Below, one piece after another: positions 4,082 through 47,400 of a DNA stretch of 64,000 nt. This DNA is from Ectocarpus siliculosus (Eukaryota > Sar > Phaeophyceae > Ectocarpales > Ectocarpaceae), in contig FN649741.1 in assembly GCA_000310025.1 (NCBI GenBank), positions 707,058-771,057 on the forward strand. The letters run 5' to 3'. A program made the translations under genes and the position numbers. The notes beneath the pieces are model-generated. The model searched no databases and was not told the DNA's origin. It worked only from the letters and a program-made list of their open reading frames with translations. Numbering within the stretch: the first letter of the stretch is position 1; each line of letters starts with the position of its first letter.

Positions 4082-7000
4082 TCAGGCAAAGTCTACGGGG
4101 CCATAACTACCAGCGGCGCCACCGACGCTACAAGTACTGCGGGGGACAAGAAGATCCTCCACGCCGATGAACACCCCGGCGGCCTGTGCCTCCTTCAAGA
4201 AAGCGTCGCTGTTGTTCATACTTCTCCCGTCGCCACCGCCGCCGCCGCCGCCGCCGCCGCCGCTCTTGCTGTTGTCGGGAGGAGAAGAGGCCCTTACCCC
4301 CGAGTCCGTCGACGAAGCAGGCGAACTAGAAGGAGCACTGCCGCCGTCGTTAGGATCCCAGTTAGCCGCGAACAGGTCGATGAAGCCGAAGTCCTCCTGG
4401 TGGGGGGACGCATGAGACAGCTGGTGGTGAATCGGCACCCCGGAAGCAGGCGAGGGTTCGGGGGACCACGGGGCCCCCGCATCGCCAGGGATAGCGATGT
4501 TGGCGGCCCCCCACCCGAACTGCTCCAGGTGCGAGAGCGGCGAGGACTGGTGCGGGGAGTTCCACCCGTTGAGCGAGGCGCCCACGACCGCCGCAAGGGA
4601 GAGGTCCTGGTCGTGCTGCTGCATCGATGGAGACGCCTGGGTCGCCTTCGCCGCCGCCGCCTTCGCCGCCTTCGCCGCCGCCGCCTGGACGGTCGCTACG
4701 GCCTGCCCGACCGGCGAGTGGATGGACATCGGGGAGTGCCGGTTGATGATGGGGTCGCTGTGGCCGCCGCTCTCGTCGCAGTCGGTGTCGTGGAACAGGT
4801 AGGGGCTGCTGGGGTCGAAGGTCGTGTCGGACTGGCTCGGCGAGGACGACCCCGCGGAAGAGAAGGACAGCGAGGAGGCCAAGGAAGAGCTAACGGAGGA
4901 CGTCCGGTCGAGGCCGCCGAAATCGCCGACAGGAGAAAGCTCGTAGTCGGAGGGCGAGGTCATGGTGGTGGGGGTCAACACGTGGTGCAGGCCGGTGGGA
5001 GACCTCGCGGGCGAACCGGGCACCTGTTCCCGCCAGTGGTTGTTCATGTTGTCGGGCTGCCCCCAGCACAGCCGGTCGTCCTCGCTGTCGCCGCTCGAAA
5101 CCCGCTCGAGGCCCCCGGTGGTACTCTGGGTCGGCCATGTCTCGTCGTTGGAGCTCTCGTCGCCGCCGTTGCTGCTGCCGTCCTGAACGTACCTCGCGCC
5201 GCCCCCGGTGCCAGAGTCCACCCGCCGACGCAGGGCGCTGCGACGAGACCCCGCAGCCGCCGGCCCGAACTCTTCGTCGTCCGAGACCTCGTCGTCACCG
5301 TCATCGTCGTCGTCATCGTCGTCGTCGTTGGCGGTGGTGGCGTCGTCTTCGAGCTTCCGGCTGCGGCGGATCGGGCGGAGGTCGGCTTGCGCGGCCGCCC
5401 TCGTCCTACCCCGCCCGGACAGCTGAGAAGCAACGAAAGCATTCCCGCCGCCGCCGCCGCTGCCGCCGCTGCCGCCGCCGCCCTTGGCGCGGGCGAGGCG
5501 CTGCGCGGCTCTTGCCTCAACGGCGAGGTCCCGCTTCACCTTTTGGCGCCGGACCTTGGAGAGCAGGTGGCGCTGCCCCCTGCGGAAGCTGGGGTGGTGG
5601 AAGGCCCCCGCGTGCGCACCTTTCCGGCGCTTGAACTGGTAGAGGTTGAGCTGCCGCTGAAACGAGGTGAACTTGGAGTCTGCGTGGTGGGCGAGGGGGC
5701 AAGAAAGGGTAGGTAGCCGAGGGGCGGGGTAGGGGCGGCGGTTTAGCGGGGGCACCGGAAGGAGGGGGTAGGAAAAATGGATACCTTTCAACGGCTGTAA
5801 ACGGTGCGCTTTGGAGACCCTCTTCTATTCATAGGTACCACACACCGGCCGCCGACACCGCCACCGCCACTGCTTCTAGGTGTGTGTTAGTCTAAGAGCG
5901 GGGCACGCGAGACAAGCGAGACAAGCGTCGCGAGTGTGCTTGCAGTAGGGGGCGGAAGGTGCACATGGTAAATGGTTCGCGCGGGATTTAAAATTCTGAA
6001 GTGCTCTACACTGCACGCGCGGTAGTGGTGTACAGGGGTGCCGGCAAGGTTGGTTCGGGCAGAATAGGGTACGCTCTATGCGGGCGGTAGGTGCTTGTTG
6101 TCGACCGACATTTTATTAGGGTAACACGGGCAACCGTTAGTCGCCGTGAACAGGGTGCTCTGCGAAGACGCTTGCTTGTAGTAGTAGTCTAGAGGAGCGC
6201 GGATGTATTGCGTGACATTTGACGATTGTACATGCAGCAAAGGTTAAGGTTGTTCCAAGTAGCAATGTTGAACGGGAAATGAATCAGGGAAAAGTTAAAG
6301 TTGTCGACCGCGCATCATGTATGCAATGTACTACGGTACTCTGTATCACAGCTTTTTGTCCGTGCGCGAACCGACCACGAACGGCAGCAGAGAGGGTCGG
6401 CAAGCCCAGTCAGCCGCCGAAAGCATACAGCAACAGCGACTTGACAATCACTTTGCTCTGAAGAGAACGGGGTCCGGGAAAAAGCCATGGGCAGGATATA
6501 TACACTGCTGTAGAAAAGGACAAAGAAATCGTGTGGCGCCCAGCCGAGATTGCATTCATAATTTAACGGAAAACAGCAATAAGTAAGTTGCATCGGTTCC
6601 TCCGGGTCATTGATTTTTTCTCCTCATTCTTTAGTGCCAAATCACTATTTATTGTCCGACGTTAACTTCCAAGCACATAAAGTCCCCGCCAGGTCAGGGA
6701 GAGATGGAATCTGAAGGATGCACGTATAATATGTGCATAAGGCGACCGACCGGTTCGGTCATCGCGTCTACGACATATCTGCCATTCATGTCGAATACGC
6801 ACACACGCGCGCAACCACGCACCACCGGTTAGTGCGGTCGATGTTACAATACAATGTACAAACAAATACGGGCAAAGAAACATACACACACAAAACACAC
6901 ACGCAGCCAGCAGCATCAGCCACACACTCACGATTAAAGTACTTCTCCAACACCTCGCAGCTGAAACGTTGTATGTCCTTCACGCGAAACGCCAAGCCGT

Positions 7001-7220
7001 CAGGCAGCCACTCCACGATCTCGGAGTCCTCCTCTTCCACGAGCGTGAACAGCTTCTGGGCGAACAGCTGAGGGCCACCGCGGGCACCCACCCTGCGAGT
7101 GGGACTGAATGCCGTGCCGCCGCCACCCCCTGTGCTCGAGAGCTCCTCGTGCTGCGCCTGATGCTGCTTCATGCTTGGTGCTTCTTCCGCATCCTGGAAC
7201 TTAACGGGCGTCGGGCGCAT
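4082..7220 (-). CDS. Heat shock transcription factor (HSF-type DNA-binding protein)
   Basis: Two exons: 7220-6932 and 5679-4082, with a 1252-base GT-AG intron in phase 1; about 628 residues. Exon 1 gives the first half of the HSF winged-helix domain (PQLFAQKLFTLVEEEDSEIV, then the tryptophan of EWLPDG, ending EKYFN). Exon 2 continues HSKFTSFQRQLNLYQFKRRK, the recognition helix and wing. The splice falls exactly where HSF families read YF(K/N)HxxF, which confirms the junction. The domain spans about residues 50-140. Afterwards comes a basic stretch, then low-complexity Gly, Asp (nine in a row), Ser and Ala segments and a short C-terminal part with FIGVEDLL. I see no clear HR-A/B leucine-heptad trimerisation region. 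The start is the first ATG in the open frame at 7220; the frame stays open upstream to about 7397 without another ATG. It should be a nuclear activator of stress genes. Confidence 0.88.
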
Positions 7221-10200
7221 GGTGTTTGACGATGACGGTGGCGCGAGCCGCGCAGTTGCGGAGAAAATTGGCAACGCACTACCTAGGAGAGAGTTGGTGC
7301 CAAGGAGCACGTCGTCGGAATGAAGGGTTGGGACAGACAGACGTATGCTGCTCGAGAGGGGTACCAGCGACGGGCAAGACAGCGGGACCAAAAACAAGTA
7401 CTACAATGGGGCGTCATTCGGCGAAGTGATGTAGAAGAAAGAGGTCTCCCGCCCTCATTTCCAACCTACAGCAACAGGTTTACGGCTTCACAGATTATTT
7501 GTTTGTGCGGAGTGCGGGTTGCGCACCATCACGCACATGTTTACTGAGGTAGGCTCCTGTTTTCAGGAACGACAGGAAAACGGTAGAAAAAACTCCGAAA
7601 ATGCCGGTGGTCCGCGCAGAAAATAGTGAAAGTTACGTCAGTTTCTGTGAGCTTATGAGACACACACACGGAGCGACACGCAGCGATATCGAAGTTCACC
7701 GCGAAGACACCGACAGAGATCAGCGAAGCACTTGTATGTCTTGAGACCGCAGCGCTCACTTTTTCTGCTCTATGTCGCTGACATCTACGCCACGTGTCTG
7801 TTTGTGTACTGTGCTGCTGTAGTTGTGTTGTTGTTGTTATTGTTGTTGTTGTTGTCTTTTCAAAATAAACAAAGGAACTGTTTCTTCGCAGCTGTCGGTC
7901 GGTGTATTTATTTGCTGAATGAAGAACTCAACCCACTGCTGTATTATACACCATCACCAGCAAGCTCGGTGGTGGCTGGTGCATCACGTCCCAACCGTTG
8001 TATGTGCATGCAGGCAGTGCCCTATTATTTGCTGCTAGCGAGGGAATCAGCGATCTGTTGAATCTCTTGTGCATCGTATGTAGACACGTTTGTGTTCGAC
8101 TCGTCGTGTTGGTTGTTGTGCGCATGCATGCATGCATGTGAGCGCAGGAAAGATGTGAAACTGCGCGGCTCATAGGCCACGAGTGAGAGTCCTCCCATCC
8201 AGCATTCCCCTGTAGTCATGACTGACTCTACTTCAGCCCCCTCAGTTGGCCACGCATGCATCGTGCCATCATTCACAAACAAACGTGCCGCGTGTGTGTG
8301 TGCTTTATTTAGCTACAAGTAGGGTGCTTTTTTATGTGTGTGTGTTCGCTTGCTTGCAGAATTATTTCTTTGGCCTTGCGTCTACCACCTTCTTCTTCGA
8401 TGTAAACCCTTGGTTTTTCCTGTCGCCTCGATACTCCTTGCTGTACATAGATGTTGTTGACACCCCCACCGTGAGACCAGCAAGCTACAACAACAACAAC
8501 AGCCTCTGTTGTTCGGTCCTCCTGCCTATCAAACCAATGAAGTAGTAGCGCAGACAGAGACGCGCGAAGGCGCTCCCATTACCTGCTGTTGTTGTTGTTC
8601 CTCCACAGACAGCTATTATTATTATTATTATTATAGCTGCAGGGATGGATCATCATCCTCTACGCGAATGCATGCATACTGCATACTTGGTATATATATA
8701 TTCTATGTACACCTGATGATATGCCATGACGTGGATCACATGAAACCTGATGATGCATAGGCATTTATTATTCCTTAATGCATAGGCATTGCTGCTGCTG
8801 TAGACGCGCTGCAAGTAACAACTGCTGTGAATCTTCTTCTTGCTTGCTGGTGAAAAAAATATTCATCAGTTTCTTCTCCTCCTCCTGCTTTGACCTTCTC
8901 GGTTGGTGAAAACATACATACCAATCCATGACCAACCGCGTAGTAGATAGTCGCCGCATCGAGTTCTTACATACACACACCTGGTGCTGCATCATCTACA
9001 GCAACGACACTACAGTACATACTAATCGCTTCACTGTCTTACTTACATCATGAAGGAACAGAGACAACGTCATGCAACAACAACAGCACATCAGTCCAGG
9101 TTTCTTATTTTCGAGGAGTTTTTTTGCCGGGGGGCATGAGGCTGTTCAGAAGGAGAGAAGTTGGTGAGAGGCTCTCACCAAGAGTTGGTGAGAGGCTCTC
9201 ACCAAGCTCTCACCAACTAACTCCTCTCGCCAACTCTTCTCCTCCTGATGATGAGCACTCTCGAGACGTGAGAGGACATCGCTCGCCGTACGGTTCCGTC
9301 CGACGGAGTAACACCATATATATATATATGTATAATATTATATATGTACCACCATCTAGACTGCTGTTATTATATTATTGTTATTGCCGAGGAGGGAGGC
9401 AGACTACTTTGTACCCAACATACACGTTGCAATCAATCAGGTTGGTTGGCTGTGCAACCAACGGTTGGGAAAAAAGTATTCCATCGGTTCAGGGAAGGTC
9501 TCGAGCTCTCGAGTTTAGCAAACAAACGCGGTAGGTATCGTTTGAGCTGTTCGTTCTGGACCGAAAAGAGATTCGACAGCTCTATTTGATATTTTATACT
9601 TTACGGTATCTGAGGATGGGTCCGGCGGCTGTCTGTGCGCTCACTGGCTACAGCAGTAGTAGTAGTAAATAGCAGCCTGTTGCGCTCCCACCCACCCACT
9701 GTGTATGTATGTGCAGCAGCAGCAGCAGCATAAATACATACATGTAGTTCATGAGCCAAAATCGCTACTACGCCCAGCCGGCGTGCTTGAGCTTGCTACC
9801 CGATGGCTGCTGCCGCTCCAAAGCTCCCCTTCCTTGCAAGTCATACCTATCACAGATTGTAACCCCGTGGGTCTTCGAGGCTGTATGTACGCCGTTCAGA
9901 CGTTCAGATAGATATTTTTCGGCGTACCGCGTATAATACCGCAACAAATAGTCTTATGAGTGACATCATAAAAATGTACGTCGTTACTATTTGTATACAT
10001 ACATACCTTTGTGGTGGGTTTCTTCCAAGAGCTTTCATGATGAACGCAGACCGGGGCGGGTGGAGTTGGATGAGAACGCATGCGATCCCAACCTTGGGAG
10101 TACGTGTCATGTGGTCTCCAAGAAAAAAAAAAAATGCCGAAATCAAACCAACCGAGGAGACTGCTGTGTGTGTGTGTGTGTATTTATTTTTTTTCCCAAC

Positions 10201-10820: not shown

Positions 10821-13800
10821 ATGCCCGGCTTCCCTCTGGCAGTGTTACTCAGCTTCGCAGTGCTCAGCTGTCAAATAGTGGAGGGCTTTGTGCCACGGCG
10901 CGTATCCATACCGTCATCCCGTACGCGCAGCGCAACGGGGACAGCACACCCGATCATGGCCGAGAGGAGCGGCAGCAGCATCAGCAGCAGCAGCAGCAGC
11001 AGCAGCAGTCCCCAGGGGCGGAGCGGCAGCACAGCAATAGCGTCGAGGAGGAGCGACGACAGCCTGCCTCGCCCTGGCATCCTCATCGTCGGGTTCGGGG
11101 GCGGGAATGGTGTCACCGTGGCCGCCGGCGTGCTCGCGAACCAGAAGAAAATCTCCTGGGAGGGGCCCACCGGCCGCAACTCTCCCAACTACCTCGGCTG
11201 CATCACGCAGCTCCCGAGCAAAGGCGGCAGCGGAGGCTACCGCGAGCGCTACGCCCTCGCCGATGCCAACAACGCGGCCATCGGAGGCTGGGACATCCGC
11301 CCCACCCCTCTCGGCGAGGCCCTCTACAACGCCCGCATCCTCGACTTCGACCTCGTCCGGCAGGTGCGCGAGGAGATGGACACCCTCAGGCTGCTCCCGG
11401 GCGTTTGGGACCCGGACTTCATCGGCGAGTCGCAGCATGAATCGGCCACGAACGTCGTCGGGGACGGAGAGAGCCAGCAGAGCCGCCTGGAGCGCCTCCG
11501 CATTGACATCCGAGAGTTTCGGGAGGCCGAGGGCGTGACGGGGCACGTGACGGTCATCTGGAGCGCGAGCGTGGAGCGGCCCAGCGAGCGGGAATTCCAG
11601 GAGCCTAGCCAGGTAGTACAACGTCAACTCGAACTCTCGTAGTCTACATTAGCCCATGCTGCGGTAGAATACACATGAGCGTGGAATGCATACATACATC
11701 ACCATGAACACCTGTAGCCGGGGGCTGCCGTTGGGTTTCTTTACAGCAGTCAAACTATCTTATGAGGGCTAACAGGATTGTTTTGTGTCACTGCTGTAGC
11801 TGTTTTCGGAACCGAGCCCCCCCGCGTGTGCAACATCTGGTGTCCTGTTGCAGTCGACTGCTGTGTTCAACATGTGCAAAGTAACACCTTTTGATGCAGT
11901 TGTAGCGTCGTGAGAGCTGAGCCTTCTTGCAGACGCTGGAGGTCGTGCACTGTTGATGGGGTTATACAGCGCCAATCCTCCTGCTCCTGCTGCAGTATAC
12001 CAACCACTTCAATTTCGCCTTCTGACCTGTGGGCTGCTTGGAAGCCATCAATTGCCAGCATGAGTAAGTACCGATCAGGTCGTGGCCATACCTCGGTGCT
12101 TCTTATCTACCTCGCGCCCGCTTCTTCGGACGTAGCGATCTGTTTTTGCGAAAAGTGCCGGCCCACGCATAAGAAGCACCTGTTTCAAGCAAGACTCAAA
12201 GCCTCGCTGTGTCTCACCGTGTGAGCTACCGCGTAGCATATTTTCGTACATATGGTGCCCCTTTGGCTGAGCTTATATTTCGTATTTAAATTAGCGCCGT
12301 TTCTTCTTGTGTCCTAAGAAAAAGAAACTTGAGCCCGAGCTCCTCGTGCGGAGGCATGTTCCTTACGAGCTGGCCGGCACCGCTTTGCTTGTTTCCCCTT
12401 GCGTTTCTTCTCCCACGTCCAGCTACTAGAGGCAATCGCTGCAGACGACAAGGAGGTGTCTCCTTCCATTCTGTACGCGGCTGCAGCCGTACTCGAGGGA
12501 TGCTCCTTCGTCAACGGTGGCTCGCAGAACACCATGTGCGGGGCGCTCCTGAAGTTGGCCGAGGTGTGGTGATCATGTTCCTGTTTTGCGTCATGTTTCT
12601 GCGGCGTGGGAGTGCGCGAGCCGTAGTGCGTTTCGTTGTAATCTGCGTGGTGGTCTTACCCGAGAAGGTTTTGGTGACACAGCAGTATGGCATGTACGTG
12701 AGGCAGTACGTATAGCACGGTGGATTTCGTTTCCGCATGGCAACGAGGATCACGTTGACGTGATGATGATGAATGGCATGCGTGCTATGATAGCCCCTTT
12801 TTTCGTGACACGAAAAGGTTGACCGTCATGCGCGTACACAGCAGTAGTACCTGATCAAGGTGGGGGTGTACGACATTCTGCCTCTTTTTCGGCACTGCTT
12901 GCTTCTTGGTGAAAGGCGCTTTGCTCTGCCCACTTTGCGCCGCTACTCCTTGTAAGCTGCTGTACCCAGTAGCCCAGCATCCACTCGCCATTCGCATGCA
13001 TGACCGCTGGGCGTCAAGCCATTCACATGCATGACTGCAGGACATGAAACATCCGGTGCAAAGGGGTCACACATGAGGTGTCACGGCGCGAGGTTTGCAC
13101 CTTTTACCCACCCAAGGCATAAAGGGGTACGGTAAGCTACACGATAGCTGTTGTTGTCGTGGGATAAAGACATTACTCCACGTACTCTTCTGCAGACATT
13201 ACATCAGTCGATACAACTGGTCGTCTCCCCTGTTGTCGTGTACCTGACTGGCCGGAAACTCGTTGTTTGTGCCTGATGTCCCCAACCCGCCGTGTTCACT
13301 TCCCGCTCCCGCTCCTCCCAGGACAACGCGTGCTATATGCTCGGCACCGACTTCAAGGCCGGGCAGACCAAGTTCAAGACCGCTGCGGTGGAGTATATCC
13401 GCTCCCTCGGCATGTGCCCCAAGGTGAGATGGGTGTCGTCGTCGATGTGTGCAGCTAGGTAGCGGTATGTGCGTCTTGCCCAAGGTGTTACGAAAACCGT
13501 TTTGGTGCTTTTTGCCCAGACCTGCAGTCTAGGTTGCAGGCGTCTCTGCTTGCCTTGGTGCTGCATCTTGTCCGAGAGACTGGGCTGCCGTGGTGCATCG
13601 ATTACGAAGGAACGAGAAAAGAGAATACGTTGCCCTAAGTCAAACTGTCATCTCTGCCCGTGACGGTGTTCATATATCGTGGAAGCAAGAGCAGGGTGCG
13701 CCGGAGGCGCCCCACCCATGGGAGTACCTCACCACGCACAGGCGTTTTTTCGCTCGGTGGTTCTACAGTACGTGACAAGTCTGACTGAACAAACACCGAG

Positions 13801-16800
13801 AGCCTGCCCCCCACCCGGGTGCCTTCTCTCTTTCACCAACACGGTAACGCTGCTACAAGGAAACAACTTGCATTGCCTGTCGAATTGCTGGGTGCAAAAA
13901 GGGCAACAGGTGACCTCCCCCCCCCCCCCCCCCCCCCCACAACCACCATCTCATTTTCCAAACAATCGCTCTCGATGAAAAAAGGTGATCGCGTCGTCCA
14001 ACCACCTGGGCAACAACGACATGCTAAACCTCACCACCAAGAAGACCCTGGGCGCTAAGATGCGAGTCAAGAGCAACATCTTCGCTCCGTGGGAAGAGGA
14101 CATCAACCACGAGGTGGGAAAACGTCTGTTGACGTACGTAAGTAGGATGTGGGGGAGGTGCGGGTTATCCTATGAAGCAACACGCAAGCTGTTGATTCAG
14201 ACACGGTTCTGAAATGTTGCACACAACTACTTCCAACATTTGTTTCCACGTAGACCACTCGATACCCTCAAAACGCCAAAAATATATCTTAGCACGGATT
14301 AATTTGTGGCGCATGAAGGGGGGGGTGATGTGGAGAACAGATATACGGGTGTTACAACCATTGTTGCACATATTACAGTGGACCTAAAAGGATCCGATCG
14401 AACGCAGTATCTTGGTAATGGTTGAACAGCAAGAAACCTGACCAGGGACGCGGACCTTTCTTCAGCTGCACCTGTGGAGGTGAGGAATGCGGGACCCTCG
14501 GTCCTCGCTCCCCTCTCCCCTGAGTGTCTCTCTCTCTCTCTCTTTTCTCTCTCTCTTCCAAGACCTTCTTGTCCTTGCCAAACCTCAACAAAGAGAGAAC
14601 TGCGAGCCCCCGGTTGTGGGCCAAGACTATCTACCACAAACTAGGTCTCCTTACGACAAGGGAAGCCTGCCCTTGCGGACTTTTTTTTTGCGGGCTTTTT
14701 TTTCTTGCGTTACATGTGACTGTACCATACACAACGTGAAGTACGCGTTGCTTGTTGTGTACGGTAGTGCTTGGCAAAACGCCTTCCAGCGAAGGACCTG
14801 GCAAAGAGTGTCGAAACTGGGTTAATTTCGCGGAACCTCTCGCGCTTCAACCATTTCCACGGCCCACCCGGATGGGACAGCTACCGATATCATCTCTGAT
14901 GCTTGTATCGACTCTTGGCATGCTGTTTTCCATACCAATGTTAATGTGCATGATCCAAATTACTCATTTGGCCCCAATCTTGACATTTCACTCCATAACT
15001 TCCATGTGCGCACGGAACGACTTTCCAATTTTCGCATCCACGCAGCACCCACGCTGAAACCGCTGTTGTTTTTGGTTTGGTGTGCGCTTTCTCCGTTAAT
15101 ACGACTTCTTTTTTTTTTTCTCCGTATGACCCAACGAATCCATTTCTATCTACATTGTTTAAGAAAAGAGAAACGAGTAGAAAGATAGATTAGCAGCGTA
15201 TAACGAAAGCTCTGTATTTTTTTTCCCGCGCGCACGTGTGTCTCAGGTGCGCGTGATGTACACGCCCCTCATGGGTGACGAAAAGCGAGACATCGTCGAG
15301 TACACCTCGTTCGGGTTCATGAACTGCGCGCACACCATGCTAACCTACACCCGCGCCATGGACAGCGCCCTCTGCGTGCCCCTCATGATCGACGCGGCCG
15401 TGTGGTGCGACTACTTCGCCCGCGCGGGCGCGCACCAGGGCAGCGTCGCCCGAGCTCTGGCCTACCTCTTCAAGGTACCCGAGGGGGGAGCGCAGGGCGT
15501 CGACCCTGGTTTCTTCAAGCAGATGCGTGCCCTGGAAGAGGAGCTAGAGGCCACGCGGCTGGGAAGTGTGGAGGCGGCGGCGGCGTCTCCCGGAGGGGCG
15601 TCCGCGGTCGGCGGGATGCTGGTGGGGAGGGTGCTGTGCGCCGGGATAAGCTGCCTGGATCTTCAGCTGTGTGGGTCGGGGGGCGGCGGCGAGGGGGGTG
15701 TAGAAACGATCCGAAAGTTCAAGGAGACCAAGTACTGCCCCGGGGGGTCGTGCCCGCAGGCATCGACGGCGTTGGCTAGGCTCGGAGTGCCGGGGGTGGT
15801 GGCGGTGACCAAGATGGGGGCGGACGCCCACGGGGATGAGATGGTTCGACAGGTGAGAGGGTGCGCCTGTCTTATCTGTCCCGCGTGCCGTGTTTTGTTG
15901 CGATCGAGTGGGGCTGCTTGTGTGATGGCATGTTCGGAATGTGGGAGAAAGCGCTTCTTTGGTGCGCGCTTCCCAGTGCGATCTGGTGTTTGTAGACGAG
16001 GCTATCACGGAAATTGTGTCGTGCTTGTTCATCGCGGTATGCATGCCACCGCTGAATGCGGCGAGTACAGCAACAGCAAACCTGCACCTCAGTCAACTGG
16101 TATGTCGTGCGATGCGCTGATTCTACCTTGCATGTCCGAGGCGATGCCGATATAACAAACGTGTGTTGCAGAGGAGTATCACAATTTCGCTTAGACCTTA
16201 AGGGTCGACCTTGTGTGGGCGTACTCCCGTGGTTGCTTGAGAAGTCAAAGGGATGGTTGTGTGTAGTAGGGTAGGGCATTTCATTTTTTGCCAGGTCCGA
16301 CCAACAGCGAACTTTTATCGACCGGGTAAACATCCTATTCATGTGGCACCCCGGCCAACAATACAATCCCACCAGGCCGGTGGCTCGACTCTATCGATCG
16401 TGAAGAAACCGACGTAACCCTATCCCTGATTTTTCTCCAACCGCCGACCCGTCCCAGATGTTAGCCGCCGGTGTGGACTGCTCCCGGGTTATCCGCGACG
16501 CTTCCGTCCAGACGGCTCTCGCGGTGCTGCCCATATTCTCGTCGGGCGAACGAGGCTGCTTCGTTAACCTTGCCGCCAACGACGACCTGTTGGGCGACGA
16601 GGTGGCCGCGGTGCTAAAGGAGGTGGCAGCGGAAGACGGGCCGCCTCTGGCCGCGTTTCACTACGGTTACCCGCACTTCACTAAGCAGGCACGTTTGCTA
16701 CTACCATGTTTCGTGGTTTCATGTAGTATGGCACGATTGACTATGGGTCAGTGTTTGGCCGAGAAAACAAGAGCCGGACGTCCATCGTGGACCCGATTTT

Positions 16801-18030
16801 CACCATTTTCCTGGTATCAATTGCCAGGTGTTTGCTTTACTACAATGTCAGTGAAGTTTCATGTCCATGAAGCGAGCATGCGTGTAATGCGCGCACGAGG
16901 ACGGTGTCCCGCTTCGGACACCTACCAAATTAACCACCCATCCACTGGCAAGACCACTATCACACAATACGGTTGCGTATTCACACATACTCGATAGGCA
17001 AAAAGCAATGCGTGTTTTAGAACGACTCTCTGGAGTGCGATCTCAATCCCACATCAGACGCTGTGGCCATCGCCGTGTTGCCAAAGTAGCCCGTTCCGTT
17101 TGATGCAAGCCTTCTCGTGGCGGTTTGCACTTTCAATCGTCGGGTGGTTGGGCTCCAGCAGAGTTGAGTGCAATGTTTGTCAGACGCAGACACCCCCCCC
17201 CCCCCCCCCGCGCGTCGTGTTGNNNNNNNNNNNNNNNNNNNNNNNNNNNNNNNNNNNNNNNNNNNNNNNNNNNNNNNNNNNNNNNNNNNNNNNNNNNNNN
17301 NNNNNNNNNNNNNNNNNNNNNNNNNNNNNNNNNNNNNNNNNAACCCCCCCCCCCCCCCCCCCCCCCCCCCTCCCGGCTCCAGATCCAAGGGCAAGCACTG
17401 GCGGACGTCCTCCGCCTTCCGCGAAGCCTCCCCGGCTCCCCATTGGTCAGCCTGGACCTCAACGGCGTCGATCCTGGGAACGACGCCCCGACCCGTCACG
17501 CCGCCGTCCTTGAGAAGGCATACCCCTTTGTGGACATCCTCCACGCCAACCTCGAAGAGGCCGAGGCGATCGTGGGACCCTTGGAAACCGGCGACGGCGA
17601 TGCTCGCCTCCGGGCGCTAGCGGAGTGGTTCCTGAGCAAGGGGGTCGCCGTCGTGGCGATCACGGCGGGGGCTAAGGGCTCCTTCACCGCGGTGACGAGC
17701 GACGCCGAGAGGCTGGCCGCGTCCCCGGGCCTGGCGAGGCAGGTCTCGGCGTGGGCGGGCCGGGAGGTCAGGGCGGCCGCTTTCGCGGCAGGGGAGGGTG
17801 CCGCCGTTAACGCTAACGGTGCCGGGGATGCCTTCGTCGGGGGCCTGGTGCTAGCCGCCGCGGCGTGGAGGGAGAGCCTGAGCCTGGAGGAGGCGGTGAG
17901 GTTCGCGGCGCTGGCGGCCCTCCAGCGCGTGGACGAGAGCCTGCGGCAGGCCGAGGACGCGACTAACGCGGCGGAGCTGATGACGGTTGCCAGGGCCGGC
18001 TCGTTGCCGCCCACGCTCCCGCTGAGTTGA
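10821..18030 (+). CDS. Inositol-3-phosphate synthase fused to a PfkB-family sugar kinase
   Basis: Seven exons: 10821-11612, 12423-12563, 13322-13423, 13985-14113, 15247-15852, 16458-16688, 17383-18030; every intron is phase 0; about 882 residues. Residues 1-45 look like a signal peptide ([18 protein letters not shown]) followed by FVPRR and a Ser/Arg-rich stretch. Residues about 86-493 are myo-inositol-1-phosphate synthase: the NAD loop [52 protein letters not shown], lysines in AKMRVKSN and GDEKRD, and the C-terminal [12 protein letters not shown]. Without a stop the same exon 5 enters a PfkB kinase (about 514-882): [42 protein letters not shown] and the anion-hole/catalytic-base motif NANGAGDAF. 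The synthase makes inositol 3-phosphate from glucose 6-phosphate. PfkB enzymes phosphorylate sugars, nucleosides or, in plants, myo-inositol; the substrate here is unknown. Intron 6 starts with GC and contains an N gap, so a small missing exon is possible. Confidence 0.88.
17223..17341. other. Assembly gap (119 N) inside intron 6 of the fusion gene
   Basis: A run of N is bordered by a C run of about 18 on the left (17191-17208) and about 27 on the right (17344-17370). The gap lies just upstream of the acceptor at 17381-17382. The homopolymers probably stopped sequencing. A short exon inside cannot be excluded, though the phase-0 join across it reads sensibly (FTKQ to [10 protein letters not shown]). 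Confidence 0.95.
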
Positions 18031-22100: not shown

Positions 22101-23607
22101 CTTTCACTGAAGCGCTCCGATCGGGGGACACACAGACAAGAATTCTTCCGTGCGTGGAACATTAAAATCGAAAAGGGTTACGCCTGCCTTCCCTCAAGCA
22201 CACGGCTTTCAACAGAGAGAAAAAACGCCCCTTCCATGTACGCTCCATTGCTGTTGTGGTGTGCATAGGCTAGATAGACGCCTGCCTACGCTTGTGCCAA
22301 GTCCAACTCGTACAAACGCTACCTTTACTTCCCTTGATCTTGATCTCACCTGCGGTATGCCTCGAGTCCTCCGAGATGCCTCTGATTTTCATGAAGTCCA
22401 CCGCGGTTAGTCCTGACTCACGAAACGTCTGTACGGAGCCACCATCGCAACAAGTCGACATGGTTGGGGGTCGCGTTGTTTTTCCGAAGGTAATGAAAAA
22501 CATCAAACAAGAATACGCGAAATCATTTCCCAGCTCTGTGCGTGTTCAAGTTCAGGCCGAGGTCGAATGTGATGTGCGAACGTACGTACGTAAAGACACA
22601 CCGCTCCTGACCAGGCTTTTCATAGCCGCACATGTGCTTCGAATGAACGAAAACTACCAACAACGCCGGGCCGGCAACATAACAAGATAGCGGGTGAACG
22701 TCTGCAAGCAGCGCGGTGCAAGAGGTAAGTGCTTGCTGCTTCGGGGCGTTGCTCTCAAATACCGAGGACGCAACGATCCCATCCCCGGTGATCTCCAATA
22801 GACAAACAACGCCTCCTCCTCCGAGAAACCAAGAAGAATACTGTAAGATCGTAGGAAGGAGCACCTTGTCGTAGAGAGCAGCCGTTTCTTGGTCTTGCCG
22901 CGTAGCGTCGCGCTTCTCCTTGAGCAGGACTCCCGCCATACCGACGTTGATGGCGAGAAACACAAAGTTCCAAGAGATGGGTATCCACAACGGCTGCGGT
23001 CTGTAGTACTGGAACACGATTGATGCCGACACGCCTGCGAACATACACGAGAAGGGAGAGAGAGAGAGAGAGAAAGTAGAACGCTGAATGTTAGTTAGTA
23101 CACCGCCGTACGTGATGTGTGTGTGTTTTGACATGTTTTTTTGTCTCTGTAGTTCCGTCTCATCGGGAAAATCGCCTTCGGTGTCGGTTGGTGAGTGCCT
23201 GGTGCAGGGATCGATCTTAGGGCTCAAGTACTTGTGCCAGATGCCACCGGATCTTTGTTGATCAAGACGAGCAAACGTGACAAACAACAACATCAACAAC
23301 AACGAAAACGAAAACAGTATTACAAGCATGAACAACAACAGCAGCAGCGGGAAGGACCTAACTAACGAGATTAGACGAAGTGAGAGCAGCAGTTTATCAA
23401 CAACCATCAGTTTCTTACGCCAGCAGCACAGAGGTTACAAAATCCCGCCGTCATTCCACCCACTGCCCCCCCTTTCGTCTTACCCGCGGCCGCGTAGACT
23501 CTCAGCGGCAGCAACTCCGTCTCCAAGAAGCCTATCCCCAAGCAAACGAACGACAAGTGCCCGGCCGCCTCGCTGAGAGACATCCGACAGAGGTGTGTGC
23601 CGAACAT
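19164..23607 (-). CDS. Popeye-domain-like membrane protein with cyclic-nucleotide-binding fold and two C-terminal repeat modules
   Basis: Seven exons: 23607-23484, 23034-22865, 22428-22350, 21723-21599, 20546-20370, 19816-19677, 19416-19164. Phases 1,0,1,0,0,2 join cleanly to about 355 residues. The N-terminus has membrane segments (GHLSFVCLGIGFLETELLPL; ISWNFVFLAINVGMAGVLL) placed as in animal POPDC proteins, whose last helix also carries WNxVFLxIN. Next comes ALYDKTFRESG...FMKI, then a cNMP-binding beta-roll: AGDVLAEQDVTQRRLYLVME, GELQVSKGG, AGEFAGEV, AKVTSWQFDELRDLL, and a closing helix. The phosphate-binding cassette is short and lacks the usual arginine. The tail holds two 46-residue repeats (VLVDGVV...GWSTQEFDQG and VLRDGTV...GWSLDQLEEG). 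It is probably a membrane cAMP/cGMP-responsive protein. The start is uncertain: the frame is open upstream of the ATG at 23607 to about 23742, so a further 5' exon is possible. Confidence 0.72.
19281..19816 (-). repeat. Duplicated 46-residue helical module (protein repeat)
   Basis: Copy 1 is encoded by exon 6 (19816-19677) and copy 2 by most of exon 7. Both are 46 residues long with no indel, sharing VLxDGxV at the start, an Arg in the middle helix, then HxxxLKxxGWS and a closing (F/L)(D/E)(Q/E)G. The residues just before each copy also match (KYRQLLT and TYEALAK). The equal length and matching flanks point to an internal duplication. I do not recognise the family. Confidence 0.75.
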
Positions 23608-33200: not shown

Positions 33201-36200
33201 GGGGGACGAACAGGAATACCAGTCAAGTACCTTGGACGATCCTTACACCCATCGGCTTTCTACCCTGGTTTGTTTTCTTACCTGTCCCTCCTGAAGGATT
33301 TGGAACCATTTGTCCGCGTCTTGCTTGAAGAACGTTCCCTTAATCTCAGACCCGTCTTCGTCGAGCAGATCCACAGAGAAAAGGGTCCCCGAACCCCGGG
33401 CGTTGTTCCATTGACGCATGTCTCCCTTTTTGGTGATCCTGTCGTCGCGACGCAGGGCAACGACAGCATCGCCAGAATTAACCACACTGTGGTCGTCTCA
33501 TGAGATCGCAACGCCACGCAGCAACGCCAGTACCGACATTTCCCAACACACTGCTTGTTCTGCGGTTGTCTCATGAGAAGTCTTACGTACCTCCTTGTGA
33601 GAGTCCCATGAGAGCACGCGGCAGCACGTTACATGTCTAATAGCTCTTCGTTATCATCAAAACTAAACAAACCAACACCAACAACGTCGAGGACGAAAAA
33701 TAAGCCACCGGTTACGCAGGCAATTGCAAGCAGAAATTCTCTAGAGAAACAACGAGCACAACGCTGCTGAAAGTGGGAGTACATGGTTCAACTCCAGGGA
33801 GGAGAAGCAGAGGGAGAAAATGAACAACTCAAATGTGCCGCAAAGGTATACCATATCGCAGTACAGTAGCAGCAGCACGTTCAGTGAGGAAGGAATCGCA
33901 AACCGTCAAAAAAACGAAAAAAAAACATCCCTTCGCCTCTACACCGACCTCTAGTGGGCAAACGCCAAAACTTCGGCACTGAGCATTTACCGTATGCCGT
34001 TGACCTGCTCACAAACAAAGTGCTTCTGCGCCAAACAAAAAAAAAAACGTCCATGTACCAACACAAAACCTACCTCTTGATAGCATTCCTTCTATCGATC
34101 GCTTCAATCACCCTGCTGTGCTTTGCTCTAAAAAAACTCTCCACCTCTTCCCTCCCCTTCCCATGCCAATTGTCGTGTTCCCCCTGTCTCTCGCCCCTTC
34201 GCTTTTTCCCTTTCCCATCCCATTGTCTTGTCCCCCCCCCCCCCTCTCGATACCCCCCCCNNNNNNNNNNNNNNNNNNNNNNNNNNNNNNNNNNNNNNNN
34301 NNNNNNNNNNNNNNNNNNNNNNNNNNNNNNNNNNNNNNNNNNNNNNNNNNNNNNNNNNNNAACCCTTCAAAAAAAAGAAAAAAAAACTCCCTTTCCCTTT
34401 TCCCCCGCCTTTTGGGGGCCAACCCCCAAAATTTGGGCATTGGCCTTTTCCTGTAGGCGGTTGCCTTGTTCCAAAAAAAAGGGTTTTGGCCCCAAAAAAA
34501 AAAAAAAAGGTCCTTGTCCCAACCCAAACCCTCCTTTTGGATGCCTTTCTTTTTTTGGATGGTTTAATTCCCCCTGTTGTGTTTTGTTTTAAAAAAATTT
34601 TCCCCTTTTTCCTTCCCTTTCCCATCCAAATTGTGGTTTTCCCCCTTTTTTTCCCCCTTTGGTTTTTTCCTTTTCCCATCCCTTTTTTTTGCCCCCCCCC
34701 CCCCCTCTCGATCTCCCCCCCCCCCTCGGTGTTTGCCATCGGGGTTGGGTTTTCGTCGCTTGGCAACGACGTTGTAAAACAAGCCGCCCCCCCCGGTGTT
34801 TGCCATCGGGGTTTGGGTTTTCGTCGATTGGCAACGACGTTGTAAAACAAGCCCCCCACTCGGTGTTTGCCATCGGGATTGGGTTTTCGTCGATTGGCAA
34901 CGACGTTGTAAAACAAGCCAATTCACTTCGTGAACTTGGCAACCAGGTTACCGTCTTTTTTTTTTTACCTCTTTTTTTTTTGGCGGTAACCATAATGGTG
35001 GTCGAGTAGATCATGTTGTGCGGGGTCGAGAAACCTCGCTCCGCGCAACGGGGGATGATCGCACCACGTTGTGTTAAAATGGTCAAGCTTCCTCGAGGCA
35101 GTTACACAGTGCTTACAACTGTCTCTGGAAGTGAAAGCACCAGAAAATAAATTAAGTCATACGTAGCTGTCATCCGTACGCAAGGAAGTAAGCACAAGAT
35201 GCCGAACACCCTTAGCAGGATGCAGCTCACCCTTCATGCGACTCGCCAAATACCTCACGGCGCTTCGCGCTTGGTGATGTGAGAGCCTGGTCCGGTGAGA
35301 ACCCGGCGTGCTCCGTCCCGGCTTTGTAGGGATGCGAGGTCAATGGTCAAACGACTACGGCATGCACGACTATGAGTACACCCCCCCCCCCCTCTCGATC
35401 TACTCCGCTTCACTTCTCACCTGGCCTTGATCGTCCAGCGGTTCTGGTAGGGGTTGATCGCCGATATCGGCATGTACGCGCTGTCCTGGCTTTGCCTCTG
35501 CACCGGCCCGCTGTTCGAGCTTCCGCGGTTAGCGTAAGGGTTGTTGGCTGCGCCGTCCCGCGCCCCGCCCCCGCCGCCGTAGTTTCCCCCTCCCCCGCCG
35601 TAGCTGTTGTTGTTACCGCCGCCTGACGCCCCCAAAATGTATGTGCGTATTTACACAAGCATTTTTAGACGGTGAGGAGCGATGTGGTGGATCACGTCCG
35701 CGTCTTGTCTCGCGTTTTCGATCGCTTTCTGTCCGGGTTACACACCACTTTCGGGGGGGTTGCGGGGTCACAACGCCGGCCCGACCCTCGCTTTCGTCTT
35801 CCTTCAATGGAAGTCCGCCACTACACTGTATATCAACGACCAACACCAGCACAGACTGGTCAATGCTACAGCAGCAGCAGCAGCAACATCGACAATAACG
35901 ACAGCACCGCAAGATCAACCAACCGCACCTGCGTAAGGGTTGTTCGCCTGTTTGTTGGCGGCGCCGTAGGGGTTGTTTGCCACCTTCGGCTTGACGTCCC
36001 GTCCTGCTCCGTATCCCCCGGTGTTCGGCTTCGAACCCCCACCGTAATTGCCGGTGTTGTTGTTGCTGCTGCCGCCTCCCAGCTCTTGCTTCACCTGGTT
36101 TCGCGGAGGCATGGCATGGCAAGATGTGGCGGCAAGATGAGCCCCAACAGGCAATTAATTGGCCCGTGATGAAAGGAAAGGGTTCCCTTTGGCCTGCGGC

Positions 36201-39629: not shown

Positions 39630-42289
39630 ATGCAAGACCAATTAAGTTCGCGCGGTGGTGTGGACATCATGGATCGCCACCAGCTACACCGCTACGACGC
39701 AGAGAGCCGGCGCACACTACGGAAGGGCATCTCGCACTTCCTGTCCCCTCAGTTGCAGGTTCTCATCAAGGAGAAGCCGCGCATCGCTCTGGCGGAGAAG
39801 GCGGACTTTGCGGAGCTCCTGAGCGAGGAACGATCCGGGAGGTGCATCGAGGAGCTGTCGATGGACCTGATGCGACGATCATTCATGATTCGAAAGAGGG
39901 TTGCTCCAGGCTCCGCGGCGGGCGGTCTGGCGGACGAGGAGGGGGGAGGGCCGCCGGTGCCGCCGGACATGCCGGCGGCGCTTCAAACCACGAACAAGCT
40001 TTCCCCTGCGTTTGCAAAGAAGGTAGGCATCGGAGATGTCCACGTACGAGCTCCATTGTTTTGGGTATTCATGCTTACGTCATTCAAAAGCACACCTTAT
40101 TCGGGAAGAACCTGGAGACGATGTGGTACACGGTCGGTGTATTGCGCTGCTGTAGCATCAATCTACAGCTGTGTAATCACAGCTACAGCTGTGTAATCAC
40201 AGCTATCAGCTGTAGGTAGCTACAAGCTGCTTCGGGGTTCGAGTCAGGGATAGAAGTCGGGGCTGATGGTCGGCCGTGGAGAGGTTATGCTAGGTTTTGG
40301 GACGATGTGCCGCACCGTTTGATTGTTCGAGGACACAGCCGAGATTGGGTGCCCAGCCGCAGGTACACCGGCGACCATCAACAGGGCCTCTTACACAGAT
40401 ATCCAGAACGTGTGTTGAGCAGTAGTCTACGGTCCTGCATCCGTGCGGTAGAAAGTTCACCAAGAGTTGCTCCGCAGGGATTCGGTCTTTTCTGCCCTGG
40501 CGCAACCGGAGGTGGTCACTGCCGACGTCGCCTACTGCTGTAGAATATGGACAACTTTTGATATGCGCAGCAGCAGTGTTCGCTTAAACAGGTAAACGAA
40601 CAACGTAACTCCCACTTGGATTGACGTCGCTCAAGGCTCGCGCTTGCCGAAGCCCTCGAGAGGCATGACCTCGTGGTGCCGATTTTTTTAACGCGGATGG
40701 GGTTCGCATCACTCATACATGCCAGACACGTCATGGCCGAGGCAACGGCGACCGTGACTCAGAATCCGCTTTGTGCCTTTGCCAGCCGCTGGTTTTGGGC
40801 GCGCAGGCGCGCTCCCCTATGACTGACGTCAAGAGGACACGGCGTCGTGTACCACCTGACCGCCGCCATGCCCTCTCTTGCTCGGCAGGCAAAGCAAGTC
40901 GCCAAACAAGCCATGAAACGGCAAAGACCCTCTAGTGATAACGAAGAGGGGGAGATGGCCTCCGCATCAGGGTATTCCTCATCGGCTTCCGCAGCAGCGC
41001 CGCTGTCCCAAGACGCCAAGTCTCTCGTGAAGCCGCTCATCTCCAGGCTAGTGGCGATGAAGTGGCCGTCAGGGTGGGGCAATCCCTTCACGACGGTTTT
41101 CAAGAAGAGCAACGCCCCGCCGCGGTACTTCGAATTCATCAAGCGGCCCATGAATCTCACTTTCATCCGAGACAACTTGAACAAGAACAAGTACACCACG
41201 GTGAGTCGCGAGGCCACCTCGATCTGTTGTTTTCCGCCGTGAATGCACGACCGAGGAGGGAGAGGCGATGCCCTGTTTCGTGTAATGTCTTGCGGTGATA
41301 CCGGCGTAAGGAGCACGGCACTGCGTAGCTTTAACTACATGCCCTTTTTCTATATCATTTCTTCTCGTGGCGACAAGAGTTGTAAGAGGACGTGTGCTAC
41401 AGATGGTTTCAGATGTGTGCTGCGATGCGGAATTCAGATTTCGACCTGCTACGCATGAAGATGCACCAGAATAACACCCACTCATTCAAGCGTGGCGTCT
41501 TCGCAGTATACGTTCGTTGTCCGCGTCTGTTTTAGCTACGGATGGCAAGGTACTGTGGTCCTGTAAAGCAAATATTCGAACATGGTTGAGCCAACTTTGA
41601 CGCGGGATAAGACCCTGGACGTCGCGTGAGAGAAGACTAGACATGCTGAGTCGCTACAGGATCAAAGCAGCGCGACCCCAGCTGTGTTTGAGTTTAAGCC
41701 ACTGACGCAGCGGAGCACGTTGAACCGTTTAATCGAAACTTGCGACTGGTCATCTGTGGCAGTGAAAAAAAAAAACGAGTCCCAGCGTTGTCAATCTCGC
41801 TGTCTGATTCCACGAAGTATCCGGTGCACTGCTGGCCCTCTCGTCCGAAGGTCTCTTTGCGGGTCGCACTGCATATTTGGGCTCGAGCGCTGGAAGCTCG
41901 CAATACAACAAAAGAATTACAATATTACCTTTGACTTTCATGAAACAAGGCGTGTCGCTATCAACACGCGGTCGCGTGGAAATGCATCGTTTGCACTGAC
42001 CAACACAAGTGTCGCGATCCGATTTCTTTCGCATCGGCTAACCACGTCCTTTTGTTCCTTCATTTTCCCGCAGGTAGCCGAGGTCGAAGCGGACCTAGAA
42101 CTCATCGTCACCAACGCCCTGGCGTTCAACCGGCCTAGCGATCCAGTCTACCAGTTCGCCTTAGAGCTGCAGGAAGCCTTCCGAAGCGAGCTGTCGCTTA
42201 TAAAGCGGAACCTCGAAGACCTAGCGCAGCAGGGAGGCGGGGGTAGTGGGAGCGGGGGGGGGCAAGACAAGAAGCAAAGGGTTCGATGA
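39630..42289 (+). CDS. Single-bromodomain protein
   Basis: Three exons: 39630-40022, 40889-41200, 42074-42289, both introns phase 0; 306 residues. Bromodomains bind acetylated lysine on histones and other nuclear proteins. The N-terminal 130 residues (MQDQLSSRGGVDIMDRHQ...) are charged and helical and not recognised. A short acidic, Ser-rich linker follows. The bromodomain covers about residues 172-285: LVKPLISRL (helix Z), the ZA loop with NPFTTVF, RYFEFIKRPMNLTFIR (the family YxxxIkxPMdLxxI signature), then after intron 2 ADLELIVTNALAFNRPSDPV, where Asn254 is the acetyl-lysine-binding position (normally YN, here FN). The C-terminus is a Gly/Ser and Lys tail. It starts at the ATG after an upstream in-frame stop. 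It may be an accessory subunit of a chromatin complex; the partner is unknown. Confidence 0.85.
40164..40216. repeat. Tandem hairpin-forming 20-base units in bromodomain gene intron 1
   Basis: Two exact copies of a 20-base unit (40164-40183 and 40184-40203) each contain AGCTGTG-TAAT-CACAGCT, a perfect 7-base stem with a 4-base loop. A related AGCTGTAGGTAGCTACAAGCT follows. It is short, non-coding and could form successive hairpins. Confidence 0.85.
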
Positions 42290-44412: not shown

Positions 44413-47400
44413 TCAATAAGGCTGGGCGAGCCTTCTCATTTCCAGGTACTCTTGGTACGGCAGCTTGTGCTTCGAGCTCTGGTAGCGGGTGACCTGACGG
44501 GTAACGCGGGTGCGAGTATGGCAGGAAGATGGTGGATCGCTTATACAAATTAGTCTTTTGCACGACGCACGCTGCCGTAGCAGGGTTGTAGATCCACGCG
44601 GAACTCGGGGCACAAGCACTGAAGTAGTGCTTGGCCGCTCGCGATAAGATTTGACACTCAGACCACGTTCATACGTGAAGAATGTGCGCGCGTTACAGCT
44701 ACGATACATCGCACAAGACAAGAGGCGAAGCCAACGTTTACCAATGCTGCCACTTCTCGCGACGGAAAAACTGGCTGTCGGTCTACAAGGAGCACCGCGA
44801 AATGTTGATCGTTTATGTGCAGAACGCCTCTCGACTACGCTTCACCTCGCCTCGCTGCGAGATGAACCAAAGCTAAACACGCCCCACAGGGAGGACATGG
44901 GAGGCGGCATTCACCCCGTTAACCGTCGGGCTGTTGGACGCAAAGCGCCTACAATAGCTGGTCTGACGCTCGCCAGTCTTACCTCTACGCCCGCAAGGAA
45001 AGCCCTGTCCACTACCCGCTTGTACCCGGCCTTACGCACTAGCCGTGAGAGGGTCACCTTCCTGCTCCAACCTGACAAGACAGCCGAACGAGGGGTGTCG
45101 TAAAACTATTTCCGCGCAGCGAAAGAGTTAATGTACCGGGAAGCGCAATGCAAATCATGTATGTGTTGTGTGTTCGTCCTACTTATTCTGGCGCCAGTCT
45201 GCACACCTCTCACATACATCGACCCAACTATCAAGCCCTCAAGATGCAACCCGCGCAAACGCAGGGTCAAAGCGCGCCTGTTCCATTCGCGAGCCATAAC
45301 ACAGCAGTTGCACCGCTACTCAAGGGGGGGGGGGGGGGTGGAGTTCTCTCATGTTTCGCGTGCCTTGCCGGTTAGACAAGTGACCACGAGTCCTCACATT
45401 GTTCCTACAGGACCGATTGCCGATGGCCAATCGTTCCTTCCTACTTTGCCAAAAGGTGGCCCAAAAATGTTTTCCCTAGCCAATCAATCTATCCTATCGA
45501 TATCACTCCTCGCCTTCCCAACCTACTTCCTACGGGAGGGGAAGGGGGCTTGGATCGCTTCGTGTTTCGTTTCGCGCACCTTGTTCTGCCGCCACCTCCG
45601 GGAGGAAAGTGGCGCTGTAACTCGACCCCCGATCGTCGTCAAACTTGATCACAATGCCGTGCACGCCGATCTGTTTCGTTGCAAACAATCCGACAACACA
45701 ACAAGACAGGCAACGGTGGTGGGGGGTAAGATGCTCGGCGGAAAGGAGATGGGCACGGAAGCAGGAGGTGTATAGTGTTCACTGGCATCCGAATCAGCGC
45801 CTGTTCAGACAGAAAACGAGCGCCGGGCGTCCACCCCAAGCCGTTCGCCTGCCAGAGCAATAAGAGGTGGTCGCTTTTCCACACCACTTTGATCAACTCG
45901 ATAAGCACGCAAAGGTACAGACCGTCAGCAACATTTTTGTACAACAGACCGGGGTTTACTATACCATAGAGCGCAATCAAACAACACACCTTAGGCACAT
46001 CGTCACATACCTCCCAGTCTTCCCAATGTTGGGCCGGCTCGTACTTGACAAGAAGCGAGACGGAGACGTCGAGGGAGGCGAGTTCTGGCATCTCGATCGG
46101 TGCGAATCTCCTGTCATTTAACGCGCTGCTCAAGGTGGCACAGGCCAGCACACATGGCAAGGGAAGCAAGCGTAGCGCACGGTCGGTAGGCCAAGCTGTA
46201 AAAAGAGCCCACAAATCATCAGGAGGAACTTGCCCATACGACAAATACAACGAAATTGCAGCAGCAGCTACGCAAGCGGCTCCGCTCCTGCCAACCTGCT
46301 GTAGGTGTAGTCTCTGAGCTGCGAGATGGCTTGAGGATGAAGGGTTCCTATGCAGCCCCGCAGGGACTCCGTGCCGTGCTCGTGCTTGTCCCAAGTGACG
46401 AACATGCCGCTGCGGAAGCGAGTGCGGGCAAAGCGGGGCTGTGGCGGGGTAACACACGTGAAAACGGCGCGGTTCTCCGGTGGAAGTATTGAGAGCCTCG
46501 GAGGTCTCGCTCAGCTAGATTGACGTGACAGACGGGGACGGATTCAGTCAGAAAGCCAGTGTCGGCGAGAAAAAATCGCCGCGCTATCCTTACTGCCAAA
46601 CAAAAATCTTGCACATCAGAAACAGCAGTGTCTCTCTCGGAATCTCTACCCTGCTTTTGCAGCCGTCAAACAGCGCACGAAAAAACAAACACACAAAGAC
46701 CCCAGTCTGCTTTTACACCCGTCAAAGATTGCACAAAAAAAAAAGACAAAATAGGCTGCACACGTGTCCCACCAGACGTATCTCGTGGAGAACGATGGAG
46801 GAGGTGGCTCGATGTTGTTGAAGTGGGCGATGATCACATCTGACGACAACCGAGCGGGAGGGAGACAAATTACCGGAACAGCAGTGTGTGAGTACCACAC
46901 GGAAGGGGAGCCGGTCCTTGCTTGGGCGGTTGTCAAACGGGCCAACTCGGACACGAATATGTGGGACCTTCTCCGAAGTGTGCCAAGCAGGGGCTTCCAC
47001 TTCGACGATGGCCACCGTTAAAGTACGTGGCATCTCAATTCGACGCGATAGAACCATATGCGAAGGTCCTTCGGTGATTGTATGCATATTTTCTGACGAG
47101 ACAGAAGCCGGGAGAGGAGGGACAGAGTGGCCGGGTCGGAACTTGAACTTGAACTAGAAAAATGCCTTCATCGGGATACATGTACTTGTAGTCTAGTTTG
47201 GTTTTTTAGTCTTCCGTAGACTTTTTCTGTAGTAACACCGCAATTACCCACGTCGGGGGCCACGGCGCGACATGCACAACGGCATGTTCCAAAAACCACT
47301 CAGGCCTCCAGCTTCCTATACGTCACGGCTCAGCGTAGTGAGAAAGCGCTGTGCTCTATACTCAATCTCTGGTGTGTAGGAGCCACGGATGGCTACAACA

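Follow-up and report, generated by a model that had tools for sequence, protein, structure and literature searches.

Can one gene encode both an inositol-3-phosphate synthase and a PfkB-type kinase, and if so, on what would the attached kinase act? This question is raised by a locus of the brown alga Ectocarpus siliculosus, at positions 10821–18030 of a 64,000-nucleotide stretch of contig FN649741.1 (assembly GCA_000310025.1, positions 707,058 to 771,057, forward strand), referred to here as the window. An earlier sequence-only reading had placed the synthase and the kinase in one polypeptide. The fused frame was confirmed at the sequence level, and a search of the 189 Mb assembly turned up no synthase other than this fusion gene, which is new here. 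With a probability of about 0.55, we favor the reading that one gene encodes one two-domain enzyme, combining a working synthase with a ribokinase/fructokinase-like kinase that would act on a free sugar or sugar acid.

One reading frame across two domains

Rebuilding of the gene model from the raw window sequence gave seven exons, which splice into a single 882-residue frame. The exon coordinates, peptides and in-phase joins of the sequence-only reading were all reproduced. Each of the seven exon lengths is divisible by 3, and all six introns are therefore in phase 0. Splice acceptors are AG in 6/6 introns and donors GT in 5/6, the donor of intron 6 (16689) being GC, and an in-frame stop lies at 10710, 111 bases 5' of the first Met. 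The parts of the gene are as follows.

10821–10955, plus strand: possible bipartite plastid presequence, with a hydrophobic stretch, VEG/FVPRR and a basic Ser/Thr-rich region (inspection, hydropathy, composition)
10821–11612, plus strand: exon 1, presequence and NAD-binding part of the synthase half, aa 1–264 (Pfam, gene model)
12423–12563, plus strand: exon 2, synthase half, aa 265–311 (gene model, genome search)
13322–13423, plus strand: exon 3, synthase half, aa 312–345, with DFKAGQTK (gene model, alignment)
13985–14113, plus strand: exon 4, synthase half, aa 346–388, with NHLGNND and Lys370/Lys374 (gene model, alignment)
15247–15852, plus strand: exon 5, aa 389–590, C-terminal part of the synthase, linker and N-terminal part of the kinase in one open frame
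15547–15621, plus strand: 25-codon join between the synthase end and the kinase start, containing Met512 (15616)
16458–16688, plus strand: exon 6, kinase half, aa 591–667 (gene model, Pfam)
17223–17341, no strand: assembly gap of 119 N within intron 6, with poly-C on its flanks, outside the join and distant from it
17383–18030, plus strand: exon 7, C-terminal part of the kinase half, aa 668–882, with NLEE (aa 723), TAGAKG, GAGD (aa 813–816) and the stop TGA

Pfam analysis of the spliced protein revealed three domains: NAD_binding_5 (PF07994; residues 86–486, profile 2–318 of 321, E 2.6e-64, 218.2 bits against a cut-off of 25), Inos-1-P_synth (PF01658; residues 325–428, profile 1–107 of 107, E 3.9e-22, 78.9 bits against 27) and PfkB (PF00294; residues 518–850, profile 5–290 of 302, E 1e-25, 91.2 bits against 25.8), the last of which is continuous across intron 6. 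Third-position GC is 0.72–0.91 across the seven exons, compared with a GC content of 0.48–0.55 in introns 1–5 and of 0.45 in intron 6, where the value is diluted by the N run.

Exon 5 carries both a 12-residue peptide from the synthase C-terminus, ending at 15546, and a 15-residue peptide from the kinase N-terminus, starting at 15622, with no stop between them, as the sequence-only reading had stated; the linker, put there at about 20 residues, measures 25 codons between these peptides. The frame is open from 15181 to 16152, beyond the exon 5 donor site. With intron 5 retained, translation would first meet a stop at 16153, and retention would therefore not give the synthase alone. Of 2000 Markov shuffles of exon 5, 13 gave a stop-free frame of its length; in DNA this rich in GC, an open frame by itself is therefore only moderately unusual. 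What carries the join is the presence of two homologous domains in one frame of one exon, together with third-position GC, which is 0.84 in the linker, like its flanks.

The synthase half, its copy number and its N-terminus

The synthase identity of the N-terminal half was borne out by both Pfam domains, by PDB matches and by the catalytic lysines. Its best PDB match is 9m53 (E 6e-72), and identity over matched segments of 386–395 residues is 39% for 9m53, 36% for 9f2k, 35% for 1vko and 34% for 1jkf; we take 1vko to be the nematode enzyme and 1jkf the yeast enzyme. Lys370, Lys374 and Lys401 align with yeast residues 369, 373 and 412, the KxxxK pentapeptide being present, and on 1jkf numbering Asp320, Gly324–Thr326, Asn350, Leu352, Asn354, Asp356, Lys369, Lys373, Lys412 and Asp438 are kept. 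A lysine in the C-terminal part of the synthase half aligns with a Lys of 7nwr, presumably equivalent to yeast Lys489, and was read as the fourth catalytic lysine. The lysine pair of KxxxK is described as essential in the synthase in an excerpt of PMC5614600.

The search for further synthases covered the alga's own assembly (189 Mb, 492 contigs) and scores best candidates only, with some stretches read as N. Assembly-wide profile searches located PF01658 at two places and PF07994 at two places, all within the window gene, and the 9m53 segment likewise matched two places, both in this gene. With the synthase half itself as the query, at E up to 10, five matches were obtained in the assembly, which are its own 5/5 synthase exons and nothing else; the search carries its own positive control where short exons are concerned. 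The evidence for the absence of a second synthase from the assembly is strong, not absolute. Genes of the inositol monophosphatase family are present (15 exon matches). With a single synthase found, the alga, if it makes inositol, therefore most likely uses this gene. Relatives of either half were also sought in viral contigs (20, 0 and 14 pattern matches, none confirmed), in a genome contig collection (40 and 76 pattern matches, none confirmed) and, by tblastn, in plasmids (no match).

The plastid presequences of algae with red-derived complex plastids, stramenopile algae among them, consist of a signal peptide, a Phe after the cleavage site and then a basic transit region. The N-terminus of the fusion protein, judged by eye only, resembles such a presequence: a hydrophobic stretch within the first 23 residues ends in VEG/F, followed by VPRR, and residues 24–75 include 6 basic, 1 acidic and 23 Ser/Thr residues. 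At the second Met (aa 46, 10956), positions -3 and +4 are A and G; at the first Met they are G and C. Given this better start context, one can conceive of a shorter cytosolic form that starts at Met46 and is devoid of the presequence. The assembly comes from a photosynthetic organism, with 87 matches to the chlorophyll-binding family, two of which translate to proteins that resemble brown-algal fucoxanthin proteins.

The kinase half and the weighing of its possible roles

In a 13-row alignment, the kinase half retains the N-terminal Asp, the GG motif, NxxE, TxGxxG and GAGD, with one departure (NANGAGD) from the PROSITE PfkB signature. Its best PDB matches are the ribokinase 3ry7 (4e-9) and the fructokinase 5ey7 (4.5e-7), and the leading NCBIfam models are two ribokinase models, IolC and fructokinase, all far under their cut-offs (fructokinase 41.1 against 450 bits, IolC 51.6 against 300 bits). 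A pairwise ranking against 12 references, comprising nine annotated kinases of E. coli MG1655 and three sequences that did not come from a database (adenosine kinase ADK, the plant myo-inositol kinase MIK, and TM0415), gave the order YihV, YdjH, RbsK, PsuK, ADK, YeiI, FrlD, PfkB, FruK, KdgK, MIK, TM0415, with scores falling from 28.1 to 1.9 bits. From its sequence, the kinase half is thus best described as a sugar-kinase-like PfkB protein of ribokinase/fructokinase type.

PF00294 has nine matches in the assembly, eight of them in four further loci, of which tblastn with the references identified one as adenosine kinase and one as ribokinase-like. The former, a separate gene on contig C2, matches human ADK (the reference sequence above) in stretches of 34–59% identity. 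The fusion kinase scored 14 bits against ADK, 5th of the 12 references, and was not classed as an adenosine kinase; the ribokinase-like locus is the only other locus that it matched (37% over 51 residues). Since adenosine kinase and ribokinase-like genes lie elsewhere in the genome, both roles look already filled. A better fit than inositol is the fallback of the sequence-only reading, in which the kinase would use a different sugar or a nucleoside.

The sequence-only reading had called it an attractive inference that the kinase is a myo-inositol 3-kinase, which would give a single protein two routes to inositol 3-phosphate, de novo synthesis and salvage. In favor of the idea, such a kinase would give the same product as the fused synthase; fusion partners often belong to one pathway, and plant myo-inositol kinase is a member of the PfkB/ribokinase family. 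An excerpt of PMC5931981 places the archaeal and Thermotoga myo-inositol kinases in the ribokinase family as well, and lists as inositol contacts D12, G26, Q136, R140 and D219 in the archaeal enzyme, and D11, N78, Q141 and R145 in TM0415. The columns of Q136/R140 (4xf7) and Q141/R145 (TM0415), a Q...R pair that plant MIK and TM0415 share in the 13-row alignment, are occupied by Asn694 and Pro698 in the fusion kinase, and no QxxxR motif is found anywhere in the kinase half. The solved inositol kinases (archaeal 3w4s/4xf7, and TM0415) account for 0 of the 37 PDB matches of the kinase half at E up to 10, and are also missing from the 35 matches at E up to 1, although the plant MIK sequence, an unverified one, finds 3w4s/4xf7 over most of its length (8e-9). 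MIK and TM0415 rank last of the 12 references, the TM0415 sequence used differing from the PDB at one residue. A plant-type MIK was not found elsewhere in the assembly in a search that had no positive control, which counts for the idea; the one match of MIK among the nine kinase loci tested is the ribokinase-like locus. An inositol 3-kinase is thus unlikely, though sequence is a poor guide to the substrate of a PfkB enzyme, so that the residue test does no more than lower the probability of the idea.

Rather improbable is a loss of kinase activity, with the kinase half turned to a structural or regulatory role of the kind ascribed to the plastid fructokinase-like proteins of plants. The plastid-like presequence (by eye), the divergent acceptor site and the presence of fructokinase-like 1 (8xzv) among the PDB matches would fit such a role, but the 8xzv match is weak (E 2.7e-4) and the GAGD, NxxE and TxGxxG motifs are intact. 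Some PfkB enzymes accept phosphorylated substrates, and addition of a second phosphate to inositol 3-phosphate, toward higher inositol phosphates, would make the fusion a union of consecutive steps; this is the most improbable of the alternatives, as the 1-PFK subfamily model scored 29.3 against 216.4 bits, and E. coli PfkB and FruK rank 8th and 9th of 12. Finally, the locus could comprise two adjacent genes that appear fused through a sequence error, or that are split by alternative transcripts with the kinase starting at Met512, where translation of a once independent kinase may have begun. Two features count for two genes and against the fusion: a +1-frame TAG just where the synthase homology ends, and the placement of Met512 where a stand-alone kinase would begin; a single base error there could therefore hide two genes, although this is unlikely. 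The two domains share a frame and an exon with uniform third-position GC, the 75-base join is free of N and of homopolymers exceeding 4 bases, and two genes only ~70 bases apart would be unusual where introns and spacers run to many hundreds of bases. Two separate genes are, on this evidence, distinctly improbable.

In the favored two-domain reading, the N-terminal half would act as an NAD-dependent inositol-3-phosphate synthase, converting glucose 6-phosphate to inositol 3-phosphate as the alga's only detectable source, and the C-terminal half would be a catalytically equipped PfkB kinase, most likely phosphorylating a free sugar or sugar acid and not inositol. The tether may serve to manage hexose-phosphate supply or the inositol branch at a single site, probably the plastid. 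Our first guess at the kinase substrate is a hexose, for example fructose, whose phosphorylation would feed the substrate pool of the synthase, and channeling would likewise be a guess. We infer translation as one chain, both activities and the plastid location. A bolder proposal, which we hold only tentatively, is that all inositol comes from a plastid-targeted synthase tethered to a PfkB kinase of new specificity, coupling inositol synthesis to a second phosphorylation step; we know of no studied organism with such a link.

Several further observations weigh against the two-domain reading. In the synthase half, yeast Ser323 is replaced by Ala; exon 4 is missing 10 residues (12 in yeast) of the catalytic region that all four compared enzymes have, leaving yeast residues 376–385 and 389–390 without a counterpart; yeast residues 115, 121–128, 210–216 and 255–257 likewise have none; and none of the NCBIfam models, at E up to 1, gave a match to this half. 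The missing stretches, the Ala for Ser323 and the lack of an NCBIfam match mean that synthase activity could be altered. In the kinase half, a Gln replaces the Asn of the ribokinase GGxxxN, giving the acceptor motif GGSCPQ, and the ribokinase model reached only 75.9 of the 299.65 bits of its cut-off. Two degenerate patterns of canonical synthase motifs gave no match in the assembly, but as even the window gene fits neither pattern, these searches lack a positive control. On balance the synthase half looks active, and altered kinetics would not be surprising.

Genomic surroundings and known systems

A domain scan of the window covered 20 of its 141 long frames. Two minus-strand frames, 4085–5824 and 6789–7400, contain complementary parts of an HSF-type DNA-binding domain (profile 44–100 and 1–48) and are probably one heat-shock-factor-like gene. 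An AMMECR1-domain exon lies at 45642–46514 (minus strand, E 1.8e-8), and an exon with the C-terminal domain of SF3a60/Prp9, a splicing factor, at 55203–55937 (plus strand, E 4.7e-12). Weak matches under cut-off were obtained for POPDC1-3 (22526–23434, minus strand, 3.3e-4) and for a bromodomain (41630–42286, plus strand, 5.6e-4). Another assembly gap, the second in the window and exactly 100 N long, occupies 34261–34360, and about 360 bases beyond it, at 34718–34919, is a poly-C-bearing 67-base tandem repeat in three copies. Elsewhere in the assembly, the chlorophyll-binding-protein family is strongly amplified: 20 of its 87 matches have equal scores over the full domain, 18 of these 20 on contigs C92, C232 and C488, and a cluster is also present on the window's own contig (C16:100–282 kb).

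Among known systems, the eukaryotic MIPS/INO1 enzymes (9m53, 9f2k, 1vko, 1jkf) resemble the synthase half in full domain content, in identity, in the catalytic lysines and in NHLGNND; the window protein differs from them in its C-terminal kinase and presequence-like N-terminal extension, as well as in the stretch missing after KxxxK and the Ala for Ser323 described above. Ribokinase- and fructokinase-type PfkB kinases (3ry7, 5ey7, YihV, YdjH, RbsK) share the PfkB motifs with the fusion kinase and are its best sequence matches, whereas the fusion kinase falls far under equivalog cut-offs, has the GGSCPQ acceptor motif and is attached to a synthase. Myo-inositol kinases (3w4s/4xf7; TM0415, 5ysp/1vk4; plant MIK) belong to the same superfamily and align at the N-terminal substrate Asp, but the inositol-binding Gln and Arg are absent from the fusion kinase. 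A PfkB kinase is also fused to an enzyme of inositol metabolism in the bacterial IolC-aldolase fusion (NF047869, 5-dehydro-2-deoxygluconokinase/5-dehydro-2-deoxyphosphogluconate aldolase); that fusion is catabolic and has another partner, and the window kinase scored 16.7 bits against its 600-bit cut-off.

In an excerpt of PMC6742357, the Ectocarpus INO1 is given as Ec-26_005440 (CBN77493.1), and two copies are reported from Saccharina latissima, with frames at contig positions 384–1991 and 333–2118 (about 536 and 595 codons) that its authors regard as full-length. Ec-26_005440 carries the same enzyme annotation and is possibly an orthologue of the window gene. Identity of the two genes was also considered, which was not confirmed and would explain the single synthase. 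The kelp frames reported there are shorter than the 882-residue fusion, which adds to the points against it and speaks for stand-alone enzymes in kelp. On the excerpted data, the published brown-algal INO1 genes either are stand-alone, unlike the gene of the window's alga, or had a second domain that went unnoticed or unassembled. One Ectocarpus synthase, Esi0279_0022, is listed among genes repressed by copper and peroxide in the part of PMC4108028 consulted, and a diatom report mentions synthase and phosphatase genes, with no fusion mentioned in its excerpt (PMC2173943). Among the titles and abstracts listed from open-licence PMC literature, none describes a synthase-PfkB fusion, and the terms inositol, pfkB, ribokinase and carbohydrate kinase are all absent from the main text of a Phytophthora fusion survey (PMC2705460).

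Inositol-3-phosphate synthase opens the way to inositol lipids and inositol phosphates, and its fusion in an apparently sole copy ties this entry step to a sugar-type kinase. By gene-fusion logic, a functional link between the synthase and the kinase is therefore suggested, for which no assay was found in print. In related algae, a second domain could have been overlooked wherever annotation relied on the synthase domain alone. The Ectocarpus fusion offers a concrete protein for testing both the substrate of the kinase and the compartment of inositol synthesis.

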